Of a stretch of 64,000 nucleotides of DNA, positions 4,251 to 58,987 are shown one piece after another. The stretch comes from Triglochin maritima (taxonomy: Eukaryota; Streptophyta; Magnoliopsida; Alismatales; Juncaginaceae). The notes under the pieces were generated by a model. The model was given only the letters and a program-made list of their open reading frames with translations. It was not told the origin of the DNA and searched no databases. The stretch spans positions 45,522,201-45,586,200 of the forward strand of contig OY821774.1 of assembly GCA_963682175.1 (NCBI GenBank), in the 5' to 3' direction. Made by a program: the position numbers and the translations under genes. The stretch's first letter is position 1. Each line of letters starts with the position of its first letter.

Positions 4251-5000
4251 AATAATAATAAAAAATAATGTGGCGTCTCCGGGAGACGCCTTCCCTTTCG
4301 GTCGGGCGTCCACAGGAGACACCCGACCGCCGACCCAATTTTAAAAAAAAAACAAAAAAAAACTAAACAAGACATTTTACGAGATTTGAGTAATCTGGGG
4401 CGTCTGCTGGTTCTTTTCCCGTCCTCCGAGAATTTTTTTTGGTGAATATGAGAGTAATATGAAGAGAGAGTGGTGTTAGGAGAGTGAAATGAACAATTAT
4501 ATAAGTATAAAGGGTATAATGACAAAATGATAATTTGTACGGACAATTTAAATATATATAACATTGTTGTCGTGCTCTGATCATCAAACACATCAGCGTA
4601 TGTATACTTTTCATACGGTGATCACTTGTATGTTAACGTTGTTGGCTTTTTGGCCTTAATCTTATGTTTTGATGATTTAATCAACCGAATCTTAATTAGA
4701 GTAGCACACACTATGCATTGCATATATATTGTATTGTGCTAACCTCTACAGGTGATCAAGACTCAAGAAAGATGGAAATGAAGTCAAGACATGTAATTAA
4801 AGCTAAATCGAAGACATGTAATCTTGATTTCTTTTGAGTCTTAGGAACAAAGTGTAATTGAGCATACTTGAGCTAAAATCAACTTAATCACACACTAGGT
4901 TCCTCATAGAAGTCACACACGAAATTTCACTTAATTTGGACTTCAATAGATCACCCAAACCTAGACCGGAAAACACTAAACTTAACTGTCTGCCCACATT

Positions 5001-5492
5001 CGGTCGACTGCAACAGGCCGTTCGGTCGACCGGATGATCAAGCTTTCTAATTGTGTTTCCCTGTCTGTTTCCGGTCGACCGAACCTTTCCAAACGGTCGA
5101 CCGTTCGAACCTTATTTTCCCGACCGTTATTTTGTCGTATATACCCAACGATCGTATTCGTATTAAACCAAAAATACCCCAAATGTATTTCATGTATCGG
5201 TCGACCGAGGACCACGATCGGTCGACCGTTTGTCCATCTCTTGACAAACCCAAAGTGCCTGTCCATAATCGGTCGACCGCCAAACCTGTTTCGGTCGACC
5301 GTTCACACATTTGTTTGTCACCCCCAAAGTGCCTGGACGAAATCGGTCGACCGAACCCTCTTAGTGTGTTCGACCGATGACTTAAGTTTTCTTAAGTCGT
5401 AGCGTTGGGCGGTCAACCGTTGCTTAACCGGTCGACCGAACTGAGTGTAAAACTGCCTAACGGTCGACCGATTGTCCCGATTCGGTCGACCG
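5001..5492. repeat. Array of paired TCGGTCGACCGA palindromes in solo LTR 1
   Basis: CGGTCGAC-type motifs start at 5001/5023, 5072/5094, 5198/5219, 5270/5292, 5344/5367, 5410/5429 and 5461/5483. Distances within pairs are 22, 22, 21, 22, 23, 19 and 22 bp. Distances between pairs are larger and irregular. The DNA between the motifs is unrelated from pair to pair. Confidence 0.93.
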
Positions 5493-5586
5493 ATTACAGC
5501 CAGAATTGGGTCCTGACTTTTCTGTTTTGTGTAATCACACTTCAACTCATACCCAATCAATCCCAACGGCTCTATTCTCTCTAATG

Positions 5587-5597
5587 CCTATATAAGG
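5587..5597 (+). promoter_or_regulatory. LTR TATA box
   Basis: CCTATATAAGG lies 947 bp into solo LTR 1, just before a GTTGTAAAACAC stretch. The equivalent in the reverse LTR at 57491-58987 is CCTATATAAG on the minus strand near 58030. In the LTR at 6557-8013 it has decayed to TTATAAATAG. Confidence 0.65.
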
Positions 5598-6138
5598 AGT
5601 TGTAAAACACATTTTAACACAACTCTCCCACTACAAACTTGTCCCAAACATTAGAGAGAATCCAAAACACTCAAAGCCTCAAATCTCAACACTTAGTCTT
5701 AATTCCAATCATACTCAAGTGTGCTCAAGCTTAGAGAGTGTTGCTCTACTCAAATTGTTGTTGTCAAAGGAAGCAAAGACTTCGGTGAAAGTCCGAAGTG
5801 TTCCTCTCGGATTGTGAGAGAAGAAAGTCAAGCTCGCGAGGTTGTTCGCGGAGTTTGTTTTGTAAAAGGCGTTCTCTCCCGGCCCGGAACGGGGAGTGGT
5901 TAGTGAAGACGTAGGCGGAGCTCGCGGAGTCGAGCGGAGCTTACAAGAGAGGACTAGGACCCGGGTGGGGTGCCGAACCTCTATAAAAACCGACGCGTCT
6001 TTGTGGTTTGCATTATTCCTTCCCTACTTGCTTTAGTTGTTTAAATTCCGCTGCATATAACTCAATCGATTAAACGAGTAGGTGATTAGATTAATAGTGA
6101 TTAGTGAACCCATTAAACCCACACGATCCTACAAACGT

Positions 6139-6551: not shown

Positions 6552-6556
6552 AGTGT

Positions 6557-8013
6557 TGTATGATCGTGATGGTCTCTAATTCTAATTACTTTTAAGCTAA
6601 TTACCTACTTGTTTAATCGATCAAGTATATGCAGCGGAATTTAAACAAATAAACAAACAAGTAAGGAAACACAAGCAAACCACATTGGCACCCCACCCGG
6701 GTCCTAGGCCTCTATTGCAAGCTCCGCTCGGATCATCGAGCTCTACTCACGATTTCACTAACCACTCCCCATTCCAGGTCGGGAGAGAACGCCTTTACAA
6801 TCTTCAAACTCGCGAACAACCCTCGCCGAGCTTGACTCCTACTCTCACAATCTGAGAGGGACACTTCAGACTCTCACCGAAGTCTATACTATTGTCTTGG
6901 ACTTTCACAAAGACCATTGATTCTTTGACAATGATTGAGTGGAACAACACTCTCTAATCTTGAGCACACTTGAGTAGAATATGGAATTGATTACTAAGTG
7001 TGGAAGGTTTTGGCCTTTTGAGTGTGTGGAGTTTTCCCTCTAATGTAGGGGACAAATAGTAGTTGGAGAGTTTTTGTTAAAATGTGTTCTACAACTCTAT
7101 TTATAAGCTATTTAAGAGTTATAGCCGTTGGGGATGAAATGAGTAAAGATTGTGTAAGATACACAAAACAGAAACTTACAGGATGCATTTCTGCATAAGT
7201 TCGGTCAACCGTTGGGCAATTTTGGACTCGGTTCGGTCAACCGGTTAAGGAACGGTCGACCGCCAAAGGCTATGACTTAGGTACACTTAAATAATCAGTC
7301 GAACACCGAGATAAGTTCGGTCGACCGATTTGTAACAGGCTCAATTGACAAACAATATCATATTCGGTCGACCAAAACAAGGTCCACGGTCGACCGAAAC
7401 CAACAGACAGTTTGGGTTTGTCGAGTTATCATACGTTCGGTCGACCGAACAAGGTCCTCGGTCGACCGATACACTAAATATATTTTGGGGTATATGGAAA
7501 TAATACGAATACAACCGTTGAGTATAATACGACAAATCTAACGGTCGGATAAATTGTGTTAACTCGGTCGACCGAAAAGGTCTGGATGGTCAACCAAAAC
7601 CGAGTAGTAAAATACTAACTGGGTAATTGATCACTCGGTTGACCAAACGGTCTGTTTCGGTCGACCGAGTGTGGGCAGACAGTTCAGGTTGAGTGTTTTC
7701 CGGTCTAAGTTTGGGTGATCTATTGAGGTCTAAATTATATGAAATTTTGTGTGTGACTTCTATAAAGAACCTAGCGTGTATGTTAGTTGATTTTAGCTCA
7801 AGTATGCTCAATTACACAAAATTCCCAAGACTCAAAGAAAGCAAGATTACATGTCTTCACTTGATTTCATTTCTTCATTGAGTCTTGATCACATGTAGAA
7901 GTTAACACAATACAATATATATGTTATGTAATATGTGTGCTAATCTACATGATTACAATTAAGATTAGGTCGATTAAATCATCAAAACATAGATTAAGAG
8001 CAAATAACCAATA
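6557..8013 (-). mobile_element. Solo LTR 2 of the TGTTGGC family (1457 bp), minus orientation
   Basis: Read on the minus strand it starts TATTGGTTATTTGCTC (a decayed TGTTGGC end) and finishes …ACGATCATACA, collinear with solo LTR 1. It is flanked by its own perfect 5-bp duplication AGTGT (6552-6556 and 8014-8018). The separate target duplications show that this and LTR 1 are two insertions, not the arms of one foldback element. It is more diverged than LTR 1 in its TATA box and palindromes. Confidence 0.86.
7202..7667. repeat. Array of paired TCGGTCGACCGA palindromes in solo LTR 2
   Basis: Motif starts are 7202, 7233/7253, 7296/7318, 7365/7387, 7438/7459, 7564/7587 and 7635/7658. Within-pair distances are 20, 22, 22, 21, 23 and 23 bp. 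Several copies have CpG-decay forms (CGGTCAACC, CGGTTGACC). Confidence 0.9.
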
Positions 8014-13460: not shown

Positions 13461-13734
13461 TGTTGAAATTTGTTTACATTTATTAAACATGCAGAATCAG
13501 GTTAAAATGATCAACCGATGGAGGAGTTTGATCGACCGATTATAATAGGAGCTCATTAATGTTGATGCTCGGTCGACTAGTGGAGAAGCCCGGTCAACCG
13601 GAATTATCAGGCACTTTTGGATGTTGGGTTCAGTCGACCAGTGTTGGATATGGTTCAATCGAAAATAACAGAGATTTTCTTGGAGTTAGGAACGATTGAC
13701 CGATGGTGATTTCGGTTGATCGAAAATTATTCAC

Positions 13735-14900
13735 GGGCACATAGAGAAAGATATCTATATGAAGCAGCCGAATGTGTTCATTACACAAGGCAAAGAAGGG
13801 CAAATTTGCAAACTGAAGAAGTCCCTTTATGAACTTAAGCAGTCGCCAAGGCAGTGGTACAAAAGGTTCGATACATTTATGTTAGAGCATGACTTTGTAC
13901 GTTGCGACTATGATAGCCGGGTTTACTTGCTGAGTCTTTGAGACGGGTCACACATGTTCTTACTCTTGTATGTTGATAACGGCTAAGGAGATGAAGCATA
14001 TAAATGATCTCAAACAGAAGCTTCATGGGAAGTTTGAGTTGAAAGACCTCGGGAGTGTCAATAAAATTCTCGGTATGAAAATCTCCAAGGATACCGAAAA
14101 AAGTGAAATCTTGTTCACTCAAAGGAGTTATATCTGGAAAATACTCGAGAGGTATAATCTCGAGAATGCCAAGCAAGTGACCACACCTATTAGCACTCAC
14201 TTCTAGCTCTCGTTGAAGTGCAACCCCTCTATTGAAAAAGAAAGGAGAGATATGAAGAGATTTCCATATGCTAGTGTAGTCAGATTCGTTATGTATGCTA
14301 TGATTTGCACTTGGCCTGCAAGACATTTCACACGCAGTTAGCCTCGTGAGTCGTTATATGACTAACCCAGGAAATGAGCACTGAGAGGCGTTGAAGTGGT
14401 TGTTGAGGTACCTGAAGGGAACCACTAATGTTAGCTCGAAGTTCACCAGATATGGAATACAAAGGCAGGTGGAGGGGTACGTCGATTCAGATTATGCTGG
14501 TGATCTGGATAAACGGAAGTGCAAAACAAGGTACGTATTCACTTTAGGTGGAGGATCCATTCTCTAACATACTACTGCACTGTCTACGACAGAAGTGGAG
14601 TACATGGCAGTTATATGGTAGAAGGGGTTGATAAGTTATTTGGGGATGGAACATGAAGTGACTAAATTGCATTGCGATAGCCAAAGCGCAATTTATCTAG
14701 CCAAAGATTAAACATTTCATTCAATGACCAAACATATTGAAGTAAGGTACCATAAAATCAGGGAATAGATCAAGGAAGGCCAGATTATTCTCCAGAAGAT
14801 TGATACGAGAGAGAATCTGGCAGTTATGATGACCAAGGTGGTCAGTCGAGAGAAGTTCGAGTTGCACTCGAAGCTTCTCAATGTCCTCAGAAAGTGAGAA
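13735..14900 (+). pseudogene. Copia reverse transcriptase C-terminus and RNase H, broken
   Basis: The RT region is recognisable from DIYMKQP…ICKLKKSLYELKQSPRQWYKRF (13750-13870). The catalytic YVDD motif near 13970 has lost residues through a small deletion that also shifts the frame. The connection domain (HINDLKQKLHGKFELKDLG, LGMKISKD, 13990-14100) and RNase H fragments (EGYVDSDYAGDLDKRK near 14475-14520, LHCDSQSAIYLAKD near 14660-14710) follow, with many stops and frame changes. Confidence 0.85.
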
Positions 14901-15049
14901 GAAGGAGCGTTCTAAGGGGTAGCGCCAACGGTGCTTCATGGAAACATGAAGGAAGCAGGTAAGAAAACAACTCAGGTAACAAATCTAAACCAAGGTGGAG
15001 ATTGTTGAAAATTGGTTTACATTTGTTAAGCATGCAGAATCAGGTTAAA

Positions 15050-15390
15050 ACAGTTGACCGGTGGAGGAGTTCGGTCGACCGATTTTAACAGGAGCTCACG
15101 AATGTGGATGTTCGGTCGACTAGTGGAGAAGCCCGGTCGACCGGAATTATCAGGCACTTTTGGATGTTGGGTTCAGTCGACCAGTGTTGGATATGGTTCG
15201 ATCGAAAATAACAGAGATTTTCTTGGAGTTAGGAACGATTGACCGATGGTGATTTCGGTTGACCGAAAATCGGTTATGGAGCTGAAGAATTTCAGGACGG
15301 TAGACCGGGGAGGGAGTCGGTCAACCGAAATTAACAGGAAGTATTCCTGTTAACCGGATGGTCGACCGTTTGAAGAATCCGGTCGATTGT
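15050..15390. repeat. Paired palindrome array in the Copia 3' LTR (shorter twin at 13508-13727)
   Basis: GGTCGAC-type motifs come in pairs whose matched ends are at 15058/15079, 15120/15141, 15181/15206, 15243/15263, 15305/15325 and 15366/15387 (21, 21, 25, 20, 20, 21 bp). Most pairs are followed by an A/T-rich AACAG or ATCAGG tag, giving a composite unit of about 60 bp. The same layout is in the 5' LTR fragment. Confidence 0.85.
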
Positions 15391-15847
15391 TGCACACGTT
15401 TTCTGTGAGATTTTGCATGTATTTTGAGTTGTCTATTTAAGAGATCCTTTGCCGTATTTGTAAAGAAAGTACTATTCTTATTTTCTTCATTGAGTATTGA
15501 GAGATTATGACTAGAGAGAGATCTAGAGTGCTTTGGGGGACAAATTGTTTTCATAAACTTGTAATCTCTGTTGCTTCTCTTGTTGGAGAAGCAGAAAAAG
15601 GAAAGGAAACCCGTAGGAGACCCCCGAAGAACGTATGCATGTTACCGAATCTTGTAAATCACGTGTGTCGTGATTGTTTTAGGTGTGAGTTCGTTATTGC
15701 TTGTTTATTTCATTTTGTGTGTGTGTTTCTTGTTGAATGATATAGTAAAGTGCTCGGATCGCAACAACGACGTCGTTAGAAGTCCATTGAACATTTTCAT
15801 GTATTTTACGGTTGGAGATGTTAAAGTGAATACGAAGAAACGAAGGA

Positions 15848-15853
15848 TATAAA
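15848..15853 (+). promoter_or_regulatory. TATA box of RNP copy A
   Basis: TATAAA in GGATATAAATGCAAAAA, 101 bp before the ATG. It is conserved in copy B at 26521-26526. Confidence 0.65.
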
Positions 15854-15925
15854 TGCAAAAAGCCCGCGAAGAGTGACCCAACAAACAACCTGAAATCCCT
15901 TTCTTTCCAACAAAACCCGACGGAG

Positions 15926-15938
15926 AAACCCTAACCCT
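15926..15938 (+). promoter_or_regulatory. Telo-box in the leader of RNP copy A
   Basis: AAACCCTAACCCT lies 11 bp before the ATG. Copy B has the same motif at 26606-26618, slightly longer. Confidence 0.65.
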
Positions 15939-15948
15939 CCGACGAGCG

Positions 15949-17865
15949 ATGGATTCGGACCAAGGGAAGCTGTTCATCGGGGGAATCTCGTGGGAAACGT
16001 CGGAGGAGGGTCTGAAGGACTACTTCTCCAAGTACGGCGAGGTCACGCAGGCCGTCATCATGAAGGACAAGCTCACCGCTCGTCCCCGCGGCTTCGGCTT
16101 CGTCGTCTTCGCCAATACCTCCATCCTAGATCTCGTCCTCGACGACAAGCACGTCATCGACGGCCGAAACGTAAGTGCACTCTCGCGGTCCCAAGATTTC
16201 AGCATTTTTTGTTTTTTTTTGTGGGATTTACGTTTTTTTTTGTTTGCTTTTCTTGGTGTTTGTGGTTTGGTTTTCGGTCCAAAGATTTGATTTTGGTCTT
16301 CTTTATAAAAAATTAGGGGGTTGTCTACAATATTTGATCTAAAATGTTGAACTTTTTTTGTCGTTGTTTTCGGTTTAGGGTTTTGTCTTTGTTGTCCTTT
16401 AATATTGTGGTTTAATGATTGGTACTGAAAAGAGTCTGATCTCTCAACTGTTGTAATACTCGTGTTATGTGTTTCTATTATTTTTGCTTGATTTATTTGT
16501 GCGTACGGTTTTTTTTTGGTTTAAATATTTGACTATGTACTATAGTGTTTGAGTTTGGTGTAAGGTTTTCATCACACTGAACTTTGTTGCATCACACGTT
16601 CCATGTTTTTCATCTACCTTTGCGATCTCTTTGTGGTACTCAAATCACACGTTCCATGTTTTACCTCAAAGGACCAAGTTTGCCAATCATATGTGTTGAT
16701 TGATTGTATTTTTATTAAATGAATTAGTGAATATTTCATTGTGTTCTGCCTGTTGCCTGTTGTGTCCTTCCAGGTAGAAGCCAAAAGGGCCCTGTCGAGG
16801 GATGAACAGCATACATCTGCAAGATCATCAAACAACTCGGGCAGAGGTATGGGCGGAGGTTCTGGTGACAACACCAGGACCAAGAAAATTTTCGTGGGTG
16901 GCTTGCCTCCTACTCTTAGTGAAGATGGGTTCCGTCAATATTTTGAGAATTACGGTACAGTTACTGATGTAGTTGTAATGTATGACCAATCAACACAACG
17001 TCCGCGAGGGTTTGGGTTCATCTCGTTTGATACAGAAGATGCTGTCGACCAAGTCCTCCACAAGTCATTTCACGATTTAAATGGAAAACTTGTGGAAGTT
17101 AAGAAGGCTCTGCCCAAGGACGCAAACCCCAGCAATGGTGCTTCTAGCGCCCGTTCAATGGGCAACGGCTCCTACAATTCGTATGGTTCCAATCACAATG
17201 CAAATTCATATGATGGCGGAATGGACAACAACAGGTATGGGCAAACACCTGCCCCGGGTGGTTATCCCGGATATGGTCCTTCAGGGTATGGTGCTCAAGC
17301 CTATGGATATGGAGCAGCGGCTGGCTATGGTGGTTATGGTATGGGTGGTTATGGAGGTGCTGCTGTGGCTGGCTATGGACCTCCTGCAGCCTATGGAAAT
17401 CCCAATGCTTCAGCAGGAGGTTATGGAGGTGGGCCCAGGATCCCTTATAACAATCAAGCTGCTTATGGTGCAAGCGCAGGCTATGGTGGTGGGAATCCTG
17501 CTGCCTCAACTGGTCTTTGCCCTGGTGGAGCAGCTTATGGAAATCCAGGATATGGGTATGGTGGTTATGGTGGGAGTGATGGATCATATTCTAGCCAAGG
17601 TGGATATGGTGCTGCTGGGCGTGGAGGTAATGGTGGTCCAACTGGTGCATCAGCCGGAGGTGGTGGAGATCAAAGAGCTGGTTCTGGTTATTTCGGTAGT
17701 GGTTATGGTGATGCTAATGTTAATTCTGGCTACCCTAATTCATGGACGTCGGATCCCTCCCAAGCTGGTGGAGGTTACGGTGCTGGTCAGGTGGATGGTG
17801 TTGGTGGCCCTGGGAGTTATGGAGGAGGATATGATGCTGCTCAAGCCAGACAATCTGCACAGTAG
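15949..17865 (+). CDS. hnRNP-like RNA-binding protein with two RRMs and a Gly/Tyr-rich tail, copy A
   Basis: Two exons, 15949-16170 and 16774-17865, with GT-AG intron 16171-16773 in phase 0; 437 aa. RRM1 is at about residues 6-80 (KLFIGG as RNP2, RGFGFVVF as RNP1), with the intron splitting its end. RRM2 is at about 111-187 (KKIFVGG, RGFGFISF). From about 190 the tail is a low-complexity GYG/GGY-rich domain with Asn and Ser, as in plant homologues of hnRNP A/B. Likely role: nuclear and cytoplasmic mRNA binding, splicing, export or granule formation. The start is fixed by MDSDQGKLFIGG, the standard N-terminus of the family. Compared with copy B, RRM1 has FANTS for FADPS and DDKH for NDKH. The Copia LTR ends ~155 bp upstream, so only a short proximal promoter is shared with copy B. 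Confidence 0.95.
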
Positions 17866-20613: not shown

Positions 20614-21020
20614 TTAGGTCATCCCAACGAGCGATCTTGTTTTAAAGATTACAACCATCATTCTCTTATCCACAACAATTTCTCTTTCTTCCTCGTCAGC
20701 ATAATCTTTACTCACACAATCTTTACATTATTCGCTTCTCAATAGTGATCTTATCTCAGTACTTTCTATTTTCTTCACCTCACTTTTTTCTCTATTATTT
20801 TATGTTTACTCTCAACAATCAATATATAACTTAATTCACTTACATCACTTAATGTAATTAATTAATAATTGCGAAAATTAACAATATTAATTAATAATCC
20901 CGAAAATTCAAAACAAATATTATTAAATATTAATAATGTATAACAATAATTTAAGCTACAAATAATTAAAACATGATTAAATAAATTACATTCACATTCA
21001 TCATTTTGTCCAAAACGATC

Positions 21021-26446: not shown

Positions 26447-26520
26447 AAGCAAACCCAAGGATAAAATGGCAAAATCACCGTGGAAGATATTAACGTGATT
26501 TATACGAAGAAAACTAAGGA

Positions 26521-42479: not shown

Positions 42480-42717
42480 CCCCTTTCCTTTGGGTGGCGG
42501 ATACAGGAGCTGCACTGCATGGGACACCAGATCAATCTGCAATTCCCACGAGAGTGAGACGCATAGGAGCCAACAACTGGACCAGAGAGAAGCTACACTA
42601 AAAGCTCAGCATCAAAAGATGCTGGAAAAGGAGCTACTAGCTAAACATGGCACAAGCTCATCTGTAACAACTAGAAAGGTTACTCAAAGAAGTAGCTACC
42701 CTGAGCTAAACAGATAG
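42480..42717 (+). other. Short coding-like insert in the satellite, origin unknown
   Basis: A GC-richer piece of about 235 bp has one open frame from 42490 to 42717 ending at a stop. Its C-terminal half reads like a Gln/Lys-rich helix (QQLDQREATLKAQHQKML, EKELLAKHGTSSS). It is unlike the AT-rich satellite on both sides, which resumes at 42718. I see no terminal repeats or target duplication. It may be a transduced or filler exon fragment; the parent gene is not recognised. Confidence 0.45.
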
Positions 42718-43119
42718 TGTTTGAGTTTTATCGATAAATGCAAAATCAAGATATCTTTGTTTACAAACATTTGTTTAAAATTTCCATCAAAAACTATCCA
42801 TTGGTATCATTAAATCTCTAAAAAACGACAAAATATTAAAAATAATAATTCAAAATATAATATTTTTATCAAATTTCGTGAGCTATAATATTTGAGATTT
42901 AGCGAAAACAATACAATCTAAATATCTTTCCATGCGCACATTCGTTCAACCTTTTCATATTAAAATATGAAGTAGTATCGTTAGACCTCTCAAATGATGA
43001 CACAATATTTCTTGTGTTATAGCCATTGGGTTTATCGGTAAATTTATAATCTAAATATGTTTCTTTAGCTAACTTGGTGTAACATTTTAACATGAAAACC
43101 TCATTGGTATCATTAAACC

Positions 43120-43182
43120 TAGGAGTGAGCATCGGTCCGGACTCGTACCATCTCCAAGGTCTGGATAGAAGATCAGACTGAA
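43120..43182. mobile_element. Truncated hAT-type element of the CCGGTCCGG family
   Basis: TAGGAGTGAGCATCGGTCCGG matches the left end of the element at 23106-23366 (TAGGGGAGAGCATTGACCGG), followed by GGTCTGG and TGAACCCAGATC words. The right end and target duplication are missing. Confidence 0.55.
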
Positions 43183-45442
43183 CCCAGATCAAAACTATAT
43201 GTCTTTATTAAATTATGTGAGTAATAAACAGCCTTTGGAATTTATTGATAAATGTAAAATCTAGATACCTTTGTTTACAAACATATGTTTAAGATTTCCA
43301 TTAAAAAAATACTAGTACCATTTGACCGCCCAAAATATGAAGAAATATTGGAAATTTTAAAATACAATGTTTTTATGAAATTTCATGAGCTGAAGCATTT
43401 GAGATTTAACGATAACAATACAAATCTAAATATCTTTCGTTAGACACTTGTGTTAACATTTTCATCTTAAAATAACGATGAGTATAATTACATCTCTAAA
43501 GACTAAGAAATATTATCATTTTTAAAAACTGAGTTTTTTTCCTTTCAAATTTCGTTTCATCTTAAAATAATGATTAGTATCATTATAGCTCTAAAAACGA
43601 AGAAATATTATCATTTTAAAAAATAAGTGTTTTTTTTCAAAATTTCGTGAGTTCTAGTCTTTGAATTTTATCAGTAAATGAAAAATCTAAATCTCTCTCT
43701 TCTAACACATTTGTATAACATTTTAATCTTAAAATTATTATTAGTATCATAGACCTGTCAAAAATATATATCGATAAATTAAGAATTTTAAAACTAGTTG
43801 TATTGATCAAATTTCGTGAACTAGGTGTTTTACCGGAACTATATAACTTTTGAGTTTTACCGGAAACAATTAAACTAGGTGTTTTAATCAATTTCGTGAA
43901 CTATATAGAACTATTTCATCTTAAAACATTAATTAGTATCACTAGACCTCCCAAATAGTGCCCTGATATCATGAATTTTTAATTTTTCATGTTTTAATCA
44001 AATTTCGTATGTTATAGCCTCTGGGTTTTTTCGATGACTGTAAATCTAAATATCTTTCTTTACACAACTTTATTTAACATTTCTGTTTAAAAAAATTCTT
44101 TGGTATTATTGCACCTCTAAAAAATGAAGAAATATTCTGACTTTTAAAACCTGATTTTTTTCTTCTTTCAAATTTCGTAATTCTTTGGATTTTATCGATA
44201 AATGCAAAATTTAAATCTCCCTCTTCACACACATATGTTTAACATTTTCATCTTAAAATATTCATTAGTATCGTTAGACATCTCAAAAATAACAAAATAT
44301 TAAGAATTTTAAAAACTTAGTATTTTAATCAAATTTCTTAAGGTATTTTTCGTAAGCCTTTGTGTTTTTCGAAAACAATAGAATCTAGGGATTTTTCGAT
44401 AGACACATTTGTTAAACTTTTTTATCTACGTTAATTAGTATCATTAGACCTCAAAAATCATGAGATAATAACTTCTATTTTAAGAACTTACTGTTGTTAT
44501 CAAATTTTGTGTGTTATATTGTTTGGGTTTTATCAATAATGTAGAACTTAATATCTTTCATTACACACATATGTTTAACATCTCCATATTTATATTTTGT
44601 ACACAATATCATTACAACTCTCAAAAATGAAGAAATATCTAAACAAAGTGTTTTTATCAAATTTCTTACGTTATAACCTTTGAGTTTCTCGAAAATAATA
44701 AAATATAAATGTCATTTGATAGACACATGTGTTCAACCTTTTCATCTTAAAATATTCGTTACTATTAGTAAACCTCTCAAAGAAGAATAAAATATAAACA
44801 ATTTAAAAAATTGAGTGTTTTTATCAAATTTCATGAGATATATAGCCTTTGAGTTTTCCCGAAAACAATAAAATCTAAGAGCACCCTTAACGGGTGCTCT
44901 TTACTCGGGCGCCCGAGTTGCCCTCCCTTAACGGGAGGGCGCGCCCTGGGCGCCTGAGCGGGGGGCCACGTGGCCCCTTATTGGTCCCGATTTTTGTTTT
45001 GTTTTGTTTTTGTTTTAAAGAAAAAAGATTATTTATATATAATTAGGATAATGTATTAATTAGGTAAATTGAATTAAATTCATTAGGTTTTGAAAATTAA
45101 TTGAAAAAATATTTTATGATTAATTAACTTTTTTTGATTTATTTAGATAAAAGTAAAATTAAAAAATCATAAACAAAATAAGAAATAGTAGTACAATACT
45201 CATACACTTCGGAAACAAAATACAATACAAATACAGAATACGAAATACAACAGAAATAAGGAAAGGAAAGATAGTCCTCCTACGGATACGAAATTTAAAC
45301 TAACACAATACTGATAAACTACAACAGACATATTGATATTACAAATGAAAACATGAGCACCTACAGATATTCTTGTGCTTAGCCCACTCCTTGAGTTCTG
45401 CAAGTGTTTCTTTATCGAATTCGTCCTTGTTTTCCTTCTTGA

Positions 45443-46561
45443 TTAGAGCAAATAGGACATCAAGTTTCTTGCTGTTGAGTTCCCTTTGGAAATTCGCCTC
45501 AGCTTCGATGCTTCGATGCGTTTCCTCTCCACCCGTTCTTCGTAACGCAAGTATTTTTCCTCTTTCACTTTTGCGCTATATTCAATTTGTTTCCCCAGTT
45601 CTAACATATCAGGATCAAGTGGTGGCTGAAATGATTGTTTCCCCTTCTTTTTTTTAGCTTTTTTAACACCTTTAGGACGAAGACATGTTTCGAACACCAT
45701 TCATCTGTTGACGGTGTTGCGTGACTCTCATCGTCGTCGATGCCTTTTCTTTTCCCGTTGCTAAAACTCTCCGGACTTTCTACAACGACGTTTCCGGTGG
45801 GAAGTCCAAGCGCAACAGACTCCCATTTAGGGTACCTGCGTAACAAAAGCTACACATGCATGTACTGAAATTTGGCGTTGTGTGTTCGTTCGTAGATGGT
45901 GTGCGCATCATGGATGACATCGTCCTCATTGTAACCACTTCTCTTCCTTCGGATCGCCTGGTCGAAGCAACCGACCCATTGGTTCACAGATGGCGATGTA
46001 CGCCTCCATCGCCCCTTCAATGATTCATCGTTACTCTCTACTGCACATGGCTCGCCCGAGTCATTGAAGATGCACTCCACACGTCTTCAGAAGGACTTCA
46101 TTTTTTGGTTTGTCCCAACCACATCATCGCCACTTACAGCAATGTAAGCCGAGACGAGTCGTTGATCCTCTTGTGTGGACCACAATTTTTGCGACCTCGT
46201 CGTCGCGGTTTTGCGTGTTCCCTTACGACTTGTAGGTTGAACGACATTTTCGTCATTCACATCAGGTGTGCCCACTACTTTCACCACTTAGGAGGCAAGT
46301 ATACATACCCATTGGGAATTGGGTTTGCCCTTCTTCCTGAGTTGGCGGTTGGTATTGATTGTGCGGGTAGAACCCTGGGTGTGGGAAAAATTGGTTTTGG
46401 TGGGACGGGTGGAACCCTGGTTGTGGGGTAAATTGGCTTTGGTATAACATGTGGAATTCTGGTTGTGGAACATTTTGGTAGGGGAAAAAGTGTTGGGTTG
46501 GGGGTGGACGACGTGGAGATCGTCGGTACTCTGGTGAACCATTGTCTTCTGAAGAGGACAT
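45443..46561 (-). pseudogene. Harbinger element 2 ORF1 (Myb/SANT-like accessory protein), frame-shifted
   Basis: The start MSSSEDNGSPEYRRSPRRPP is at 46561. A Pro/Gln/Phe-rich repeat leader follows (HPSHQNQFFPHPGFYPHNQY). After a frame change near 46300 comes the trihelix-like domain: KLWSTQEDQRLVSAYIAVSG, VGTNQKMKSF, then GRWRRTSPSVNQWVGCFDQA, RSGYNEDDVIHDAHTIYE and KFQYMHVWLLLRRYPKWESV. The C-terminal coiled-coil-like part is AKVKEEKYLRYEERVERKR. Stops at two or more places. GTATGT near 46308 could be an intron donor, but the gap seems too short. It is the better preserved of the two ORF1 copies. Confidence 0.82.
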
Positions 46562-46642
46562 TGTGAGATTATGGTGGAAGAAGTAAGATCGGAATAGAGG
46601 TGAGTAGAGAATTAAGGTGGTTGGGGTATATATATTCAAGTA

Positions 46643-46930
46643 GTCACGCACATACTGTAGGTCATCGATCCAATCGTCTCGTCTTTTGTGAGTCACGCGC
46701 ATACTGTAGGTCCTCGATGCATGAGAAGTCCAAGCCTCGATGCAATCGTCTTGTCTTTTGCGAGTCACGCGCATACTGTAGGTCCTCGATGCTTGAGAAG
46801 TCCAAGCCTCGATGCAATCATCTCATCTTTTGTGAGTCACGCACATACTGTAGGTCCTCGATTATTGAGAAGTTCAAGCCTCGATGCAATCGTCTTGTCT
46901 TTTGCCTAGTCACGCGCATACTGTAGGTTA
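46643..46930. repeat. 72-bp minisatellite in the divergent promoter of Harbinger element 2
   Basis: The word GTCACGCGCATACTGTAGG starts at 46643, 46692, 46764, 46836 and 46909 (49, 72, 72, 73 bp). The first unit is shortened. Confidence 0.92.
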
Positions 46931-47013
46931 CTTCTCACAACTATAAATGTACTCCTCCTGGTTGGTTCTCCTGATAGGTTACTTCTCACAACTATAAATG
47001 TACTTCACCTGAT
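46926..47013 (+). promoter_or_regulatory. Duplicated TATA block before the Harbinger 2 transposase
   Basis: GGTTACTTCTCACAACTATA with TATAAATGTACT occurs twice, about 48 bp apart, just after the minisatellite. On the other side, GAATATATATAC (minus strand, near 46626-46637) would serve ORF1 about 70 bp before its ATG. Confidence 0.55.
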
Positions 47014-47052
47014 AAGTCTTCCAGTTCAAAGACTTCATCATCTTCAACATCC

Positions 47053-48279
47053 AATGACGAAGTTTACGACCAAGTGTTGAACTGCTTAACGGAGTATGTC
47101 TCCCAAGTGGTGGACCAACGTTCTAAGAGGCGCAGAAGGTGAACTTCAAACCCATATAGAGATAGGGAGCTTGGTTACAACCGTTTGACTGCCGATTATT
47201 TTTCTAACGACCATGTTTATCCTGACAACATTTTCAGGAGAAGATTTAGGATGCGAAAACATGTCTTTCTTCGCATTGTGAGTGCCATTGAGGCGTCTGA
47301 TGCCTTCTTCCAACGTAATCCAGACGCCACCGGTAGGATGAGCATCTCTGGCCTGCAGAAATGTACCACGGCGATTAGTATGCTAGCGTACGGTGTTGCG
47401 GCTGATGAGGTGGACGAATACTTGAGCCTAAGCGAATCCACGGCGAGAAACACACTTGACAAATTCTGCGATGGTGTAATTAACAACTTCGGTGGTGAGT
47501 ACCTCCGAAGACCTAATGCAAATGATCTAGCACGACTACTTCACGTTGGTGAGCAGCGTGGGTTCCCTGGCATGATGGGAAGTATTGATTGCATGCACTG
47601 GGTGTGGAAAAATTGCTCGGTTGCTTGGAGGGGCCAATATCAAGGGCGTAGTGGTAATGCCACTCTTGTCCTCGAGCAGTGGCGTCGGCTGACTTGTGGA
47701 TATGACACTCGTTTTTTGTCACACCAGGTTCATGCAATGACTAAAATGTCCTACAACAATCTCTGGTTTTTGACGACGTAATGGAAGGACGAGCTCCACC
47801 TGTGAATTTTGAGGTAAACAGTTCTCGATATAATATGGGTTCTTACTGATGATATTTATCCAAAATGGGCAGCATTCATTCCGTCCATCGTTCATCCACA
47901 AAAACCGAAGGACAGGTTATTTGCTGAACGACAAGAAGCAGTACGCAAAGATGTAGAACATGCATTTGGAGTCTTGCAAGCGCAGTTCACGATAGTGAAG
48001 AAGCCATCTCTTGCATGGAGTAAGGTTGTACTTAACAAAATAATGACAGCTTGCATTGTAATGCATAATATGATAGTGGATGATGAACGTGATTCCTTCG
48101 TTGGTTTTGGAGATTGAAATGAATTTGTTGAAGATCAACCTGGAAATTCCGTGAACGACGCGATTCGGTATTCCACTGACCGTGTAGTGAATATTACCAG
48201 GTACTTGAGAAGGAGAGATCAAGTGCGTGATCGCACCACACATTTGAACCTTCAAGCCGATTTGATCGACAATATATGA
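47053..48279 (+). pseudogene. Harbinger element 2 transposase (DDE superfamily), broken
   Basis: From 47185: LTADYFSNDHVYPDNIFRRR, helix-turn-helix region SMLAYGVAADEVDEYLSLSE, EYLRRPNANDLARLLHVGEQ, and the first catalytic Asp in MMGSIDCMHW. A one-base frameshift follows VLE near 47675, then PGSCND in a second frame. The Glu block RQEAVRKDVEHAFGVLQAQF is at about 47930-47990. The tail is KPSLAWSKVVLNKIMTACIV … HLNLQADLIDNI, ending at 48279. There is a TGA near 47140 before the conserved region and a stop at 48118. Close to Harbinger element 1 in order and wording, though not the same copy. Confidence 0.88.
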
Positions 48280-48705
48280 CAACGCTTTGGAGGAAATGTG
48301 TCTTGATGTATTTTAAGTTTAGTATTTAAGTTTAGTATTTAATGATGTATTTTTAGTTTTAGTTTTTAAATTTCCAGTTAATGTACTATGTAATGTGGTT
48401 TCCTAAATTTTAATAATATTTTCGTATTTATTAATTAAATGTTAATTAAAAACGAATGAATTGTTGATATTAAATAATTACGATAATGATTATTAATATA
48501 TTTTGTTGATTGTTGAAAGAGTTTTAGAGAGAAGAATAAAAATAATGATGTGACAACAAATACTGTAGCGTGACTGGGTGGATTGGGTAATGGTTAAGGA
48601 TTTTGTAGGGGGGTTGGGTTGTGCTAACGTGGCGGAGAGAAGCTGATGTGGCTGAGAGAGAAACCAGGGCGCCCGGAAACTGCCCGGGCGCTGTTAATGA
48701 TGCTC

Positions 48706-51170
48706 TAAGGATCTCTCGGTAAACACATTTGGTAAACCTTTTCATCTTAAAACATTGATTAGTATCATTAGACCTCTCGAATGATTGACATATTTTATGA
48801 ATTTTAAAAAGTCATTGTTTTAATGAGATTTTGTGTTATACCGATAAATGAAAATTCTAAATCTTTTTTACACACTTTTTTACCATCTAAAACAAATTCA
48901 TTACTATCAATACACCTCTAAAAATGAAGAAATATTATGAGTTTTAAAAACTGTGTTTTTTTTCAAATTTCGTGAGCTTAGGCTTTGGATTTTGTCGATA
49001 AATACAAAATCTAATCTCTCTTCACACACATATGTTTAAAAAAAATTAAAATATTCATAATTGTCATTAGACCTCTCGAAAATATGAAGAAAATTTAAAA
49101 TACAATGTTTTTATCAAATTTCGTTAGATATAGCTTTTGAGTTTTAGCGAAAACAATAAAATCTAAATATCTTTCGAAATACTCATGTGTTCAATTTTTT
49201 TATCTTAAAATATTGATTAATATAATTAGACATTTCGAATGATAACATAATATCATGAATTAAAAAACTCAGTGTTTTTATAAAAAAACTCAGTGTTTTT
49301 ATAAAAAAACTTCATGTTATAATTTTTGAGGTTTATCAATAAATTTAAATTTAAATATCTTTTTTATGCACCTCTGTTTAACATTTCCATCTTAGTATCA
49401 TTATAAAACTAAAAAATATTATGAGTTTTAAAGATGTACTTTATTTTTTAAAATTTCGTGAGTTATAGCCTTTGGATTTTGTCGATAAATGCAAAATCTA
49501 AAAATCTCTATTCGCACACATATTTTTTACATTTTCATATTAAAATATTCAGTAATCACATTAGACCTCTCAAAAAAAGAAAAAAACATTAAGGGTTTTA
49601 AAAACACAATGTTTTTATCAGATTTTGTTAGATATAGCCTTTGAGTATCTAAAATAATAAAATCTAAATATCTTTCGATAGGCTCACGTGTTCAACGTTT
49701 TATCTTAAAATATTGATTAGTATAATTAGACATTTGAATGATAACATAATATCATGAATTTAAAAACTCATTTTGTTTATGAAATTTCATGTTATAATTT
49801 TTGAGTGTTATCAATAAATGTAAATTTAAATATCTTTTTTACACACCTTTGTTTAACATTTCCATCTAATTGTTTTTCATTAGTATCATTATAAAACGAA
49901 AAATTATTATGAGTTTTAAAATTGTGTTTTATTTTTTAAATTTTCATGATCTACAAAATCTAAATATCTCTATTCACACACATATGTGTAACATTCTCAT
50001 CTTAAAATATCATCATTATCATTAGACCTATGGGGAAAAATGAAAACATTAAGAATTTTAAAAATACAATGTTTTCATCAATAAAATCTAAATATCTTTC
50101 TAGAGGTTTTTTCGTCAATATTTGATCTAAAATGTTGAAATTTTTAGATCTAAACATTTTAGACAACATTTTCATCAATAAAAGCAATATTTGGACCTAA
50201 TTTTAGATCTAAACATTTTAGACAACATTTTCATCTTAAAATATTGATCAATATTATTACACCTCTCAAATGATGACATAATATATATCATGAAATTTAA
50301 AATGTTATTGTTTGTATCAAATTTCGTGTGTTATTTCCCTTTGAGTTTTATCGATAATGTGGAACTTAAATATCTTTAATTATTTACACATATGTTTAAC
50401 ATTTCAATCTAAAATAATTAATAAGTATCATCACACCTCTCAAATATGAAGAAATATTATGAGTTTTAAGAACTGAGTGTTCTTTCAAATTCGTGATATA
50501 GCCTTTGGATTTTGTCGATAAAAGCAAAATCAAAATATCTTTGTTCACTTACATATGTTTAGCATTTTCATCTTAATATATTCATCAATATCATTAGACC
50601 TTTCAAAAAATAAAGAAATATTAAGAATTTTAAAAATGGAGTGTTTTAATCAAATTTTGTAAGCTATAGCCTTTGAGTTTTAGTGAAAATAATAAAATCT
50701 AAATATCTTTCAATAGGCGCACATATTCAACCTTTTCATCTTAAATAATGATTAGTATCATTAGACCTTTAAATGATGACATAATATCATGAACTTCAAA
50801 ATCTTATTGTTTTTATCAAATTTTGTATGTTATATCCTTTGGGTTTTATTAATAATGTAGAACTTAAGTATCTTTTTGTACATACATATGTTTAATATAA
50901 TTTCCACCAAAAAAATATTCCGTACCGAATATCATTACACCTCTCAAAAATGAAAAATATTATGAGTTTTGAAAACGGAGTGTTTTTATCAAATTTCTTA
51001 AGTTATACCCTTTGGGCTTCTCGAAAATAATAAAATGTAAATGTATTTCGATAGACACATGTTCAATATTTTCATCTTAAAATATTCATTAATATCATTG
51101 AACTCCTAAAAAATGAAGAATAATATAATGAATTTTACAAGTTGAGTGTTTTTATCAAGTTGTAAGTTTA
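48706..51170. repeat. Diverged satellite, segment 4
   Basis: About 14 monomers. CATCTTAAAATATTGAT-type starts near 50231, 50404, 50562, 50735, 50890 and 51064 give periods of about 155-175 bp. Near 50100-50215 there is a local duplication of GATCTAAACATTTTAGACAA, and at 49266-49305 of AAAACTCAGTGTTTTTATA. Confidence 0.8.
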
Positions 51171-52535: not shown

Positions 52536-53505
52536 ACGAGTTAAAATGGACATACTCATAACTTAAAATAGACACGTCTAAAACTTAAAATGGATAGACT
52601 CGTAACTTAAAATGTGTAGTCACACAAGTTAAAATAGACAGACACACAACATAAAATAGACAGATCCAAAACTTAAAATGGACGAACCCATAACATAAAA
52701 TGGAAACGTCTATAACTTAAAATGGAGACGTCTGTAACTTAAAATGGACAGACACACAACTTAAAATGGACACGTCTATAACACAAAATGGACAAACTCA
52801 CAATTTAAAATGGACACGTCTATAACTTAAAATGGACAGACCCACAACTTAAAATGAACAGACCCACAACTTAAAATGGACACGTCTATAACTTGAAATG
52901 GACGGACCCACACCTTAAAGTGAGCACACACAACCTAAAATGGACACCCACAACTTAAAATAAACATGTCTACAAATTAAAATGGTCAGACCCACATTTT
53001 TGGAACGGTCAAACGAGACACAATTTTCGGTTGAACAAAACACATTTTTCGGTCGAACATAACACATTTTTCGGTCGACCAGAACACATTTTCCGGGTAT
53101 GGATCGGTTGTAGGTATAGGATATATAAGTATTTCGTACACCTTTCCGTAATTCTCAAAATTGAAATAACTAGAGTAAGTCGCAGTACTTTTGAAAATTG
53201 GCCTATGTGGTGGAATATGCAATTGTTGTTATTCTTCTGAACATCTCAACATGAAAAAATGATTTTTTTAAACTGACAGACACACAAGTTAAAATTGACA
53301 TACCAACGACTTAAAATTGACAGACTCATAACTTAAAATGGGAAAACACAACTTTAAATGGACAGATCCAAAACTTAAAATGGACGGACTCATAACTTAA
53401 AATGGACACGTCTAGAAAATAAAATGGACATACCGGAACTCAAAATGGGCAGACACAACTTAAAATAGACATGTCTATAACTTAAAATGGACAGTCTCAC
53501 AACTT
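52536..53505. repeat. ~22-25 bp minisatellite ACTTAAAATGGACA…
   Basis: About 30 copies of AACTTAAAATGGACAGACCC / AACTTAAAATGGACACGTCT run over 52536-52990 and 53275-53505. Between them, at 52997-53095, is a short run of ACACATTTTTCGGTCGAAC units (~24 bp), a relative of the LTR palindrome half-site. Confidence 0.9.
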
Positions 53506-54148
53506 ATCCTAAATTATCTATTAATCATGGAATAAAAGGTTGTGAATGCATTCCATCAGCCAAAAGTATTTGTTAATACATTATAGACAAATTACAGTTA
53601 TAAAATCATTCTTAACATCTAATTCTGAAATCCCTTGCATACAAGTATAGAAAAATCAACACTTATTTTATCAATCATTATCATTGAGTTATTAAGCTCT
53701 AATAGCATAAGAAACTTAATTAATCATAAGGAAAACTACATTTTCAGAATTGTTTCTAGATATTAAAAGCATGGGTTCAAAGAAATTCACGAAATTTGGA
53801 TAAAAAACCCCCCAAAAAATGAACAACTCACGTTATCCTTGTCTTAAACGTTAAATCTCACAATTTGAACTTCGACAAAACATTTGAGAGGGAAAAAATT
53901 TTAGAGACGAGGGAAGAAAAGAAAGAGGGGGTAAAATGATGAGTTTCTCTTGCTAAAACCCTAACTTGAAGAGAATATCACTATTGTAATTAGTTAGTAA
54001 TGAAAATGATAGTTTTGGGAAAATAAAGATGTCTTGATCTAAAAATAAAGTTGAAAAGTCAACCCCTTTATCATTAAAGTTGAGGGAGTTTTGTGACCTT
54101 GAATTAATTCCCCCTTCATTTAATATACCAACGAGACAAGATTAAATC

Positions 54149-55617: not shown

Positions 55618-56149
55618 TGTGATATCCTAACCCATTTCGTGGAGGCTAATGGTGTTTAAGGAGGTGGTTAGGTGAGAAGTTTGACTTGGAGGAGAGAGAA
55701 GTATGGTTGGAGTGTTGAAGGTGGAGTGATTGGGTGAGGGAGTATGGTTCGGGTGTTGGTGGATGAGTTATAGGAAGAAGGCTCTCCCTCTCCTTTCTTC
55801 TTTTCTTTCCCAACCCAAGCCTCATCTCATCCCCCCTTCTCTCTCAAGGTGTCGCCGGCGACGAGGTTGTCGAAGCTCCGGCGAGTGGCGGCGAGCGTGA
55901 CCCCTGAGGTGTGAGGCGTGTGGAGTTGACACGAGAAGAAGGCTCTCGAGCGGTTGTTGTTTGGAGGTGGTTGCGAGGGGGCTCCGGCGAACTCCGACAG
56001 TTGCAAAAAGAGGTACGTCAAGTTCTTTTGCATTAGTGTTTCTCTCACACATACGTTGTAAGGTTTGGGTTCGTCGCCGGAGATCGGAGACCTCACCGGC
56101 GACGAAGACATCAAGTTGTACTTGGTAGGTCCAAGTAGTTGTCGGCTAA

Positions 56150-56711
56150 CGGTCGACCGGTGCCTTCGGGCGGTCGACCGGACGTAGTGTAAATCTTCAT
56201 TTTTACCCAGTGTCGGTCGAACGATGTCATTTGGTGGTTGACCGGTTGAGCAAATTTGATGGGTTGGAGAGTTACTAGTGTTTTTCGGTCGAACGGGGGG
56301 GGGGGGGGGGGGGGGGGGGGCTGAGCCGTTTGACCGGTTGCCTTGTTACTGAGTTGGACCGAGAGTAGATCATCCAAACGGCCGACCACTCGTGACCTTT
56401 GTCCGACCGGTAACTTATGTCCACTTATTGTTCGGTCGACCGATTAGATGTTGGTTCGACCGTTGTGACTAGATCATTGTAGGGCAGACTCTGATATTTT
56501 TCGGTCGACCGGGACCCCTGATCCCGTTCGACCGTTGCCTTGATTTTGACTTAGATTTATTCTGGATTTTGACCATGTAACAGTCGACCGATTTATGCGT
56601 TTTGTTCGACCGTTGGGGCTTAAGTTGGGAGCCCAAAGTTTGACCGTGGTAGGCGTCCGGTCGACCGATCCTCTAGGGAGCGGTCGACCGGTATACCTTT
56701 TTCGGTCGACC
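56150..56711. repeat. Paired TCGGTCGACCG palindrome array in the TGTGATATCC LTR
   Basis: Matched positions of paired motifs: 56150/56171, 56214/56235, 56440/56460, 56509/56532, 56588/56610, 56644/56665 and 56688/56710, that is 21, 21, 20, 23, 22, 21 and 22 bp. Within the array a run of 26 G (56295-56320) interrupts another pair. Confidence 0.88.
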
Positions 56712-57490
56712 GTTTGGACCCAGAACTGAATCCTTGTCTTAGTGGAGTGACAACTTTGTCCACGAAAACTCATGTCCTCGCCTAGCGCGTGAGTCGGGAG
56801 ATGACAGTGGGTACGTTGCTCGTGCCTGCCCATGGATCATCGTATGGAAGAGTGTGGACACTTGAGACGTTCCACATTTGTACTATAGACGGTGGCGTCG
56901 TATATGCTTTACTTGACTCATATTAAAGCAGTAGACCTGAGGGATCGCAGATCCCAAAGTACGATGTTGCACTGCTCTACAGAGCGAGATGACCCTACGG
57001 ATTTCGGTCTGGTTGAGTTGATTGGCCGACCTTATGGGCGACAGAAACCTTCGACTGGCCTTGATGGCGATTGTTGCACCGTTCGATGTTGTTCCATACG
57101 TGTTTGACCTGAGTCGATGTTGTTCTGACGGGTGTACTGACCAACGATGTATTCCGACAGGTAGCTTGGATGTGACACAACTAAGTGAGATAGACCGACC
57201 TGAGCGACGACTCCGTCGGTGTGGTGTTGACTACGAGTGCAGATCTGTTACTACTGGCGCAGACATGCAGACGTACCTCACCAAACCCCATGATTAGTGT
57301 AGTCGCACGTTGGGTGTGTTGCGTACTTTCCGTAAGACCGTATGTACATACGGTAAGTCCCTACAGGTGACTCGATGATGGATTGATGGACTGGTGGACT
57401 GGTGTCCTTATTGACCCTTGAAGGGTGATGTTTACAGTTTCATTTTATATTGTCATGCTACTAGTTGTGGGGATCGTATGAGCCCTCTAG

Positions 57491-58987
57491 TGATCGTAAT
57501 TAACTAAAGTGCGGAATTAAAACTTAATTACGAAACTAATAACTAATCATGCAAGGATTAGATGAGAGTTAGAGAACTTGCAAACCACATTGTAGTCGAC
57601 GCCCGATGTAACGAGGTTCGGCACCCTCTCCGGGTCCTAGTCCTCACTCACAAGCCACGCTCGTCCCTCGAGCCTCGCTTGTGGTTTCCACTATCCGATC
57701 TCCGTTACCGGGCCGAGATCAACGCCTTTACAAACAACGAGCCTCGCGAACACCCTCGCCTCGCCCGTGTCTCCTCTCACAACCCGAGAGGGAGCTTCCC
57801 CGAAGCTATTACAACTCTTGTGATTTGGATGAAGGAATGAATCACACTTCTTGCTAATGACACTCTAACTTTGAGCACACTTGGATTATGATATGGATCT
57901 AGGAATACAAGTGGTGAAGTTTTGGCTTGAGTGTGTAGGATTTGAGCTTTGAAGGTTTGGGAAAGATAGCACAATGATACTTGATATTTGGAGAGTGTAG
58001 TGCTTGTTGTTGTGCTTCTAATGAGGTACTTATATAGGCTTCAAAGCTCTTAGAGCCGTTGGGGAGTGGGTGAGAAAGTTGACCCATGAAATGTGATGAT
58101 GTGACAAAAGTTCGGGCAGAATTTGCACGCTCCTCGGTCGACCGTTAATCGAACGGATTACCGAAGATGGTCATTTCGGTTTACCGAATCCTATTCGGTT
58201 AACCGCTCACTCAACTCCAGTAGCTCTCTAACTAGCAACCCTAATACAATTCGGTTTACCGTTCCAAACTGGACAGTAAGATTGGTAGGGTTCTGTTAAT
58301 GCTAGGTTCGGTTGACCGTCTATACTTCGGTGTACCGAAGTTAGCACGGGTTTTGCGCTGACAATGCGTGGGAAATTGTTTTACCAATAACGGTCAAGTT
58401 AAATAGTCGTTGGTCTCCTAAAGCAATATGATTTGGTTGACCGAATGAAGTTCGGTGTACCGAATATGGATAAGTCAATTTGGCTTTAGGTCAAGATTTA
58501 AATACGACCATTGGAGCAAAGTCCAAAACCTGTCCATGCTAATTCGGTCTACCGAAGGTGGTTCGGTATACCAAGGTGGTTATTCCAGGGAACACCTAAA
58601 GGATTCTACACGGTTGACCGCAAGGTGTTCGGTGGACCGAACTCTACATGATTCGGTTTACCGAGTGGGGTTCGGTTAACCGTGGGGATACGAGACAGAA
58701 TCCTAATGTGCTCAAGTTTACATTAATCCTAAGGACTCAAATTATACTAAATTACATATTGGTCCAAAGCTTGATTACATGTCTTGAGTCTTTATCTTCT
58801 TGTCCAAAGCTCCTTAGCTTGATTTTTCATCAACCTATTAAGAATATCGCAAGTAGACAAATATATATGCAATGCATGTATTCATGTTTGCTTACTTTGA
58901 TTGTCTATGTTGATTGATTAAATATAGATTAAGATTAGATTACTTAATCATCAAAACTAAATAAAGATTAAGGCTAAAAAGCCAACA
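57491..58987 (-). mobile_element. Solo LTR 3 of the TGTTGGC family (1497 bp), minus orientation, nested
   Basis: Minus-strand ends TGTTGGCTTTTTAGCC … TTAATTACGATCA, collinear with solo LTRs 1 and 2. The target duplication is CTAG (57487-57490 and 58988-58991), possibly CTAGT. The TATA box CCTATATAAG is on the minus strand near 58030. The GC-rich end region matches 5720-5970. Its palindromes have diverged (next entry). Confidence 0.88.
58135..58680. repeat. Drifted paired palindrome array, all pairs exactly 19 bp apart
   Basis: CGGT-N3/4-ACCG motifs start at 58135/58154, 58177/58196, 58309/58328, 58434/58453, 58545/58564, 58611/58630 and 58654/58673: seven pairs, each 19 bp. Centres vary (CGGTTTACC, CGGTTAACC, CGGTGTACC, CGGTCTACC, CGGTATACC, CGGTTGACC) but the CGGT and ACC half-sites stay. 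One unpaired copy is at 58252. Confidence 0.93.

Follow-up and report, generated by a model that had tools for sequence, protein, structure and literature searches.

The closest described counterpart of the sequences discussed here is the "repeated motif" (RM) of Sireviruses, which the accessible part of Bousios et al. 2010 (PMC2829016) presents as a palindrome with a CGG-CCG core, found in at least eight copies per element. RM boxes cluster in the long terminal repeat (LTR) upstream of the TATA box, and their clusters form CpG islands; the Vitis version is CGGTCGACCG, and Osr8, Osr10, Barbara and Inga also have CGGT/ACCG half-sites (PMC2829016, Table 3). The same text calls RM Sirevirus-specific and absent from classic Copia elements. 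Maize Sireviruses have a palindrome of their own, CACCGGACNNNGTCCGGTG (Bousios et al. 2016, via the accessible part of PMC10760457), which has been studied for its RNA structure and as a source of small RNAs and has also been found in Helitrons. In Triglochin maritima, a stretch of 64,000 nucleotides (assembly GCA_963682175.1, contig OY821774.1, positions 45,522,201 to 45,586,200 of the forward strand; the window below) contains five LTR-borne arrays of a 12-mer palindrome, TCGGTCGACCGA, that belongs to the motif class already described for Sireviruses. What is new is that the motif extends over Copia and Gypsy LTRs alike, together with the grammar by which its copies are paired and the helical phasing of the pairs.

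The arrays contain either the Vitis core or its looser form, CGGT-NN-ACCG, a resemblance to be read with the fact that the arrays were themselves found by that motif. The LTRs of the five window arrays hold 9-15 sites each at no more than one mismatch, within the RM range of at least eight copies. By base counts, the observed/expected CpG ratio of the LTRs is 0.99-1.29 compared with 0.81 for the window, at a GC content of 0.40-0.51. The differences from RM are that the motif here also occurs in other Copia and in Ty3/Gypsy LTRs, and so is not private to Sireviruses, and that it comes in narrowly spaced, helically phased pairs and in a second dialect with a variable centre; the accessible part of PMC2829016 makes no mention of RM spacing or phasing. 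The maize palindrome likewise forms abundant clusters in Copia LTRs, but it is a different sequence, and the accessible account mentions neither pair spacing nor phasing for it. Tnt1-type modular U3 boxes, as described in the same part of PMC2829016, are also regulatory boxes repeated in the LTR, in elements that are conserved outside their divergent LTR control region; their motifs differ from subgroup to subgroup, whereas the half-site described here is the same in both superfamilies. In the literature searched, which covered few subscription papers and some sources in part, we found no report that places the motif in both Copia and Gypsy LTRs, nor of helically phased pairs.

The palindrome is extremely abundant, with 79,427 exact copies of TCGGTCGACCGA in the 1,063-Mb genome against 15 for a reversed-letter control. 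In the window, 51 matches turn up in a scan that tolerates two mismatches, where 0.79 are expected (100 dinucleotide shuffles; largest count 3), and nearly all of them fall within the five arrays and a truncated Copia LTR copy; three lie scattered, at 27777, 44905 and 53071. The LTR arrays to which an earlier note on this DNA had drawn attention are thus real, and their motif reaches far beyond the window. That note overlooked the fifth array, at 58134-58683, and it took the partial Copia LTR (13461-13727) for an array of the same palindrome, where there is no exact copy and only four mismatched sites. The TGTTGGC-type LTRs that it listed do carry arrays, and are solo LTRs of a single family in opposite orientations.

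The copies are paired. The five window arrays have 56 adjacent gaps, of which 26 measure 19-23 bp, compared with 6.7 under random placement (20,000 runs, largest 18). The single-array p values are 0.001, 0.012, 0.057 (Copia), 0.004 and 0.00005, which do not amount to five independent tests because the solo LTRs labelled L1 and L2 in Table 1 are homologous and L3 is related to both. A genome-wide spacing histogram had been named beforehand as a result that could sink the idea of pairs, and the peak is present: the 10-bp core forms 86,109 exact pairs at 19-23 bp, 1,886 at 12-18 bp and 7,505 at 24-28 bp, with control counts of 0 in each class, in a count that covers spacings of 12-28 bp and is unbalanced for family copy number. 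Among the matches listed for the 12-18-bp class, 47 of 50 are spaced at exactly 18 bp. The first 100 of the listed 19-23-bp pairs, all of them on contig C1 and with duplicate families included, comprise 56 at 22 bp, 20 at 21, 10 at 19, 8 at 20 and 6 at 23. The individual distances given in the note agree with ours for 5001-5492 and for the array of the TGTGATATCC LTR. We reread the Copia array as 21, 21, 21, 20, 20 and 21 bp, the third value, given before as 25, being judged by eye on account of a decayed second site; for 7202-7667 the series 20, 22, 22, 21, 23, 23 gives way to 22, 22, 21, 22, 19.

The sites fall into two dialects. Their common denominator is CGGT-NN-ACCG, with half-site TCGGT/ACCGA, and most arrays have CG at the centre. 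In 48 sampled arrays, with related copies counted separately, pairs in which both centres are CG lie 22 bp apart in 100 of 188 cases and 21 bp apart in 42, and of the 23 pairs with no CG centre 13 are at 19 bp; the 49 mixed pairs are divided, with 17 at 22 bp and 14 at 19 bp. One dialect therefore has a CG centre and pairs mostly 21-22 bp apart, and the other a variable centre and pairs mostly 19 bp apart, as in the window array L3, whose centres are AA, AC, CA, TA, CC, AG, AT and CG. The proposal that pairs span two turns of B-DNA holds for the CG-centre dialect and less well for the variable-centre one, at 1.8 turns. Exact pairs also occur in nine stretches of viral contigs; the variable-centre pair had no match among the viral contigs searched.

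Several unrelated retrotransposon families carry these arrays. The 48 arrays, taken from the window, from C1:41-822 kb and from four other C1 loci, form ten sequence clusters at BLAST thresholds of our own choosing, and another 18 arrays, read at 17 C1 loci, fell into these clusters without exception, for 66 arrays in ten groups (one of the 17 loci, L082, has only three sites and was left out of clustering). Family A, the TGTTGGC type, was classified through one copy, L068, by which L1 was also assigned. This copy has a Copia gag match without reverse transcriptase (RT), a Met-tRNA primer-binding site (PBS), a target duplication CTATT, and several polypurine tracts (PPTs) as in Sireviruses: AGGGGGAG stands at 3549, 3566 and 3704, and the terminal PPT, AAAGGGAG, two bases off AGGGGGAG, precedes the AT/TG junction and the 3' LTR at 3788. 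On these sequence features family A appears to be Sirevirus-like. Family B (L069) encloses Copia gag and RVT_2 and lacks a AGGGGGAG PPT. A PBS pattern tried for both families, CCTACATGGTATCAGAGC, fits in only one place, the actual sites having intervening or different bases. RVT_2 is also present in families C and D and in the window Copia element, whose RT pieces are 71-81% identical in amino acids to those of D (L067 and L070) and 45-63% to those of C; the identity is 58-59% between C and D and 26-40% between B and the others. The window Copia element has the single PPT AGGTGGAG, and its pol ends by our reading about 100 bp from the LTR, so that it lacks the PPT and linker features of Sireviruses; its relatives L067 and L070 are also without AGGGGGAG.

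On the Gypsy side, a cluster G relative at C1:194037 has an integrase tail, SH3_Tf2-1 and a Chromo domain (E 6.6e-6) before the LTR, as expected of a chromodomain element, and the window Gypsy-type LTR, which has no coding part, groups with it at modest identity. Cluster E (L071, C1:650500-655300) encloses Ty3 capsid, RVT_1 and integrase in a Ty3/Gypsy frame that stays open for 1,434 codons and is flanked by two places with arrays, the second of them known only as a listed motif match; the long frame suggests recent activity. Another candidate for the inside of an E element, C1:342900-348600, has no recognised retrotransposon domain and looks by eye like host gene sequence. Cluster F (C1:72659) is without element assignment. 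From the coding sequence adjoining or enclosed by the arrays, the motif is shared at the least by Sirevirus-like, other Copia and Ty3/Gypsy LTRs. When the palindromes are masked, the arrays show no convincing homology between clusters (8 hits at E up to 0.01, the best at E 0.002 bar one at 5e-5 between cluster F and the window Copia array). On this ground, and because the superfamilies differ, we reject one ancestral LTR behind all arrays. That one palindrome recurs in LTRs of unrelated families, paired at a narrow spacing, suggests a shared docking site for a DNA-binding protein.

The sites are conserved while the sequence between them is not. Across ten family A LTRs, not counting the bases by which sites were defined, identity is 0.89-0.91 in half-sites, 0.66-0.72 in spacers and 0.80-0.84 in the rest of the LTR, and sliding the site mask by 8-16 bases lowers identity to 0.59-0.70, leaving a single peak at zero shift. 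Each of the seven clusters that have five or more arrays shows half-sites above spacers, six of them clearly. CpGs usually decay fast in methylated elements, and the conservation is all the more notable because each CGGTCGACCG core carries three of them.

Phasing on the DNA helix extends beyond the pair. When a single array stands for each cluster, gaps of at least 28 bp have their best period at 10.50 bp (n=58, scan-wide p 0.002), and it is retained when each value is counted once per cluster (n=50, p 0.007). Distances from pair centre to pair centre (n=38) gather near 42, 63, 73, 94, 105 and 126 bp, with R 0.57 at 10.5 bp, a phase of -0.19 bp, p 0.0003 and a best period of 10.3 bp, and the signal survives dropping any one cluster and taking other representatives (R 0.39-0.69). 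Long gaps in arrays of the 19-bp dialect exceed those of the other dialect by roughly the number of bases that the pair lacks (phases +2.74 vs -1.31). The earlier suggestion that both sites of a pair face the same side of the DNA is thereby extended, the clearer helical signal lying between pairs.

We propose that each palindrome is a candidate site for a dimeric, sequence-specific host protein recognising TCGGT/ACCGA. Two dimers would sit side by side on each pair, and the spacing of pairs by about whole helical turns would place the complexes on one face of the DNA, where they could cooperate as an enhancer of the LTR promoter or in escape from silencing. The presence of the motif in unrelated elements would then reflect convergence on one host protein, and the arrays would have been built by local tandem duplication and turnover. 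The observed basis is the copy number, the pairing, the presence in Sirevirus-like, other Copia and Ty3/Gypsy LTRs, the conservation of sites, the link between centre and spacing, and the phasing. A motif common to Copia and Gypsy favours a host protein over an element-encoded one, and the shared binding site put forward in the note gains indirect support from site conservation, from the same half-site in unrelated LTR lineages and from the phasing. Binding, host origin and activation are all things we infer from sequence, and on balance we think that the arrays are probably cooperative host-protein sites acting as LTR enhancers. A TATA-like string follows the array in seven of the nine LTRs inspected (three of family A, two of B, one of D and the window Copia), a tally made with no chance control; examples are the TATA-like box at 5589 near the L1 array and TATTTAA (15434), upstream of which the window Copia array sits.

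A number of results weigh against this proposal. No TATA-like string was seen after the window Gypsy-type array or the one C-type array inspected, and the likely start site of the Gypsy-type LTR, by our reading, precedes its array, so array position relative to the promoter is apparently not fixed. In the variable-centre cluster B2 half-sites barely exceed spacers (0.781 vs 0.751). The phase is weak or off in three of nine clusters (R 0.37 and 0.55 off-phase, and 0.11 in window L3), tandem duplication inside arrays means that gaps are not independent, and the sampling of clusters was confined to contig C1 and the window. Bousios et al. 2010, in the accessible part of the paper, found no single factor for RM (PMC2829016), and our literature search by the letters of the site turned up no relevant factor among the listed titles.

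The alternative that fares best is that the motif did not arise by convergence and was moved between lineages by template switching or swapping of U3 cassettes. The modularity of LTR control regions is known, and in family B arrays have been replaced or turned over inside a conserved LTR: either dialect occurs in copies whose flanks are 92% identical on the left and 85% on the right, and with the sites removed their array parts align no better than shuffles (score 15 vs up to 16). The half-site is nonetheless common to both, which also speaks for the binding-site proposal. A clean cassette swap does not describe this case, as only the array part is unalignable, and the promoter sequence that comes after it is diverged but still homologous. 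Across lineages, the few hits described above amount to little homology among the masked arrays; the same want of convincing homology leaves the note's idea of a mechanism that seeds the word into unrelated elements without clear support. We regard exchange as unlikely, though an ancient one may have taken place.

Pairs could also act as RNA, two palindromes 7-12 nt apart folding in the LTR transcript into a 10-12-bp hairpin that is used by the element or feeds small-RNA production. Any two copies of a palindrome are mutually complementary, small RNAs concentrate on Sirevirus palindrome clusters according to the accessible part of PMC10760457, and a crude test on 26 window pairs, with partners permuted across families, gives p 0.028. 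When partners are permuted within arrays, however, true pairs are no more complementary than others (54 pairs, p 0.142), and on this result we set hairpin pairing aside as the main cause of the pairs despite the cruder one. Fully complementary centres occur in none of the seven pairs of window L3, and a hairpin does not predict pair phasing over 40-130 bp, all of which makes this explanation quite improbable.

The spacers have a mixed history. The window Copia array is a diverged tandem repeat of about 62 bp (flank similarity p<=0.001), family A arrays contain units of about 72-74 bp, and spacer similarity in the TGTGATATCC array and at 58134-58683 is nowhere significant (lowest p 0.055). The claim that the DNA between pairs is unrelated accordingly stands for the Gypsy-type LTR and for 58134-58683 and fails for Copia and family A. 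The statement that the arrays are not simple tandem repeats is borne out in the Gypsy-type array and L3, where units show no significant similarity, and needs qualifying elsewhere, where spacers are in part diverged tandem repeats; adjacent units are not similar over their full length even there, the Copia and A units being alike only in part. That the arrays are just selfish minisatellites, in which slippage multiplied a CG-rich palindromic unit and the spacing mirrors what was duplicated, would suit these 62-bp and 72-74-bp units and the 22-bp minisatellites elsewhere in the window, but it is very unlikely given that sites stay while spacers diverge, that the same half-site occurs in lineages whose arrays lack convincing homology, and that the L3 pairs are 19 bp apart in 7 of 7 cases with dissimilar spacers.

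Returning to cooperative host-protein sites, a broader version is conceivable, in which a single host protein, or a few related ones with the dialects CG/22 and NN/19, reads phased pairs as a genome-wide cis-regulatory code on which several Copia and Gypsy lineages have converged; we hold this only tentatively. With tens of thousands of copies, one factor could then control much of the LTR load of the genome, and a feature reported as private to Sireviruses would widen into a regulatory layer in both superfamilies of this plant. If a host protein reads the site, LTRs of several unrelated lineages could be switched or silenced together, and the abundance, narrow spacing and phasing of the sites make such a protein directly searchable.

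The window features that belong to the arrays are collected in Table 1. The ends of L2 were set by reading, and scripted runs took ends within six bases of them. In the L1 array the second site of the fifth pair has two mismatches. The LTR-like sequence at 55618..59359 is interrupted by the solo LTR L3, and no target duplication was seen for it.

Table 1. Array-bearing elements of the window and their parts (window positions)
Feature	Position	Strand	Remarks
Solo LTR L1, family A (putatively Sirevirus-like)	4640..6133	+	TGTTGGC...CCTACA; read from sequence
Target duplication of L1	4635-4639 and 6134-6138		AACGT, 5 bp
Palindrome array of L1	5000..5493	+	7 pairs: 22, 22, 21, 22, 23, 19, 22 bp; centre mostly CG
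Solo LTR L2, second of family A	6557..8013	-	Orientation opposite to L1; target duplication AGTGT/ACACT
Palindrome array of L2	7201..7668	-	Most pairs align with L1 pairs
Truncated Copia LTR copy	13461..13727	+	92% identical to 15003-15270; decayed palindromes
Broken Copia pol remnant	13728..14900	+	RVT_2 by Pfam at 13934-14203; RNase H part by eye
Copia 3' LTR	15003..15789	+	3' end not fixed; preceded by single PPT AGGTGGAG + AT
Palindrome array of window Copia	15051..15390	+	Diverged tandem repeat of six ~62-bp units; one pair per unit, spaced ~20-21 bp
LTR-like sequence TGTGATATCC...GCTACA	55618..59359	+	Ty3/Gypsy chromovirus type by relatives; ~64% identity to them (C1:194037)
Palindrome array of Gypsy-type LTR	56149..56713	+	Pairs 20-23 bp apart
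Solo LTR L3, diverged subfamily of A	57466..58987	-	Target duplication CTAGT; nested in Gypsy-type LTR
Variable-centre array CGGT-NN-ACCG of L3	58134..58683	-	15 sites: 7 pairs exactly 19 bp apart and one single

Other repeats lie between and beyond these elements. At 53006-53096, outside any recognisable LTR, four 22-bp tandem units contain CGGTCGAAC/CGGTCGACC words, flanked on either side (52541-52991 and 53270-53506) by a 22-bp minisatellite that differs from them in sequence, and about 20 copies of the 22-bp minisatellite GAGAAAGGAGTCGTCGGGTCAC occupy 22421-22848. The stretches 15808-19831 and 26477-30698 are duplicates, 79% identical over about 4.3 kb, the first with coding sequence for an RRM protein. 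Those at 20662-22134 and 47149-48659 are related (63%) in opposite orientation, and 47143-47778 matches Plant_tran (PF04827). A remnant of a non-LTR element with RVT_1 and endonuclease pieces lies on the minus strand at 38442-40793. Dispersed AT-rich repeats spread over 31634-51148, among them a 96-nt family whose 24 copies often lie some 166 bp from one another, and an inverted repeat at 59670-61057 has arms of about 480 bp that are 86% identical and contain internal 44-46-bp tandem repeats.

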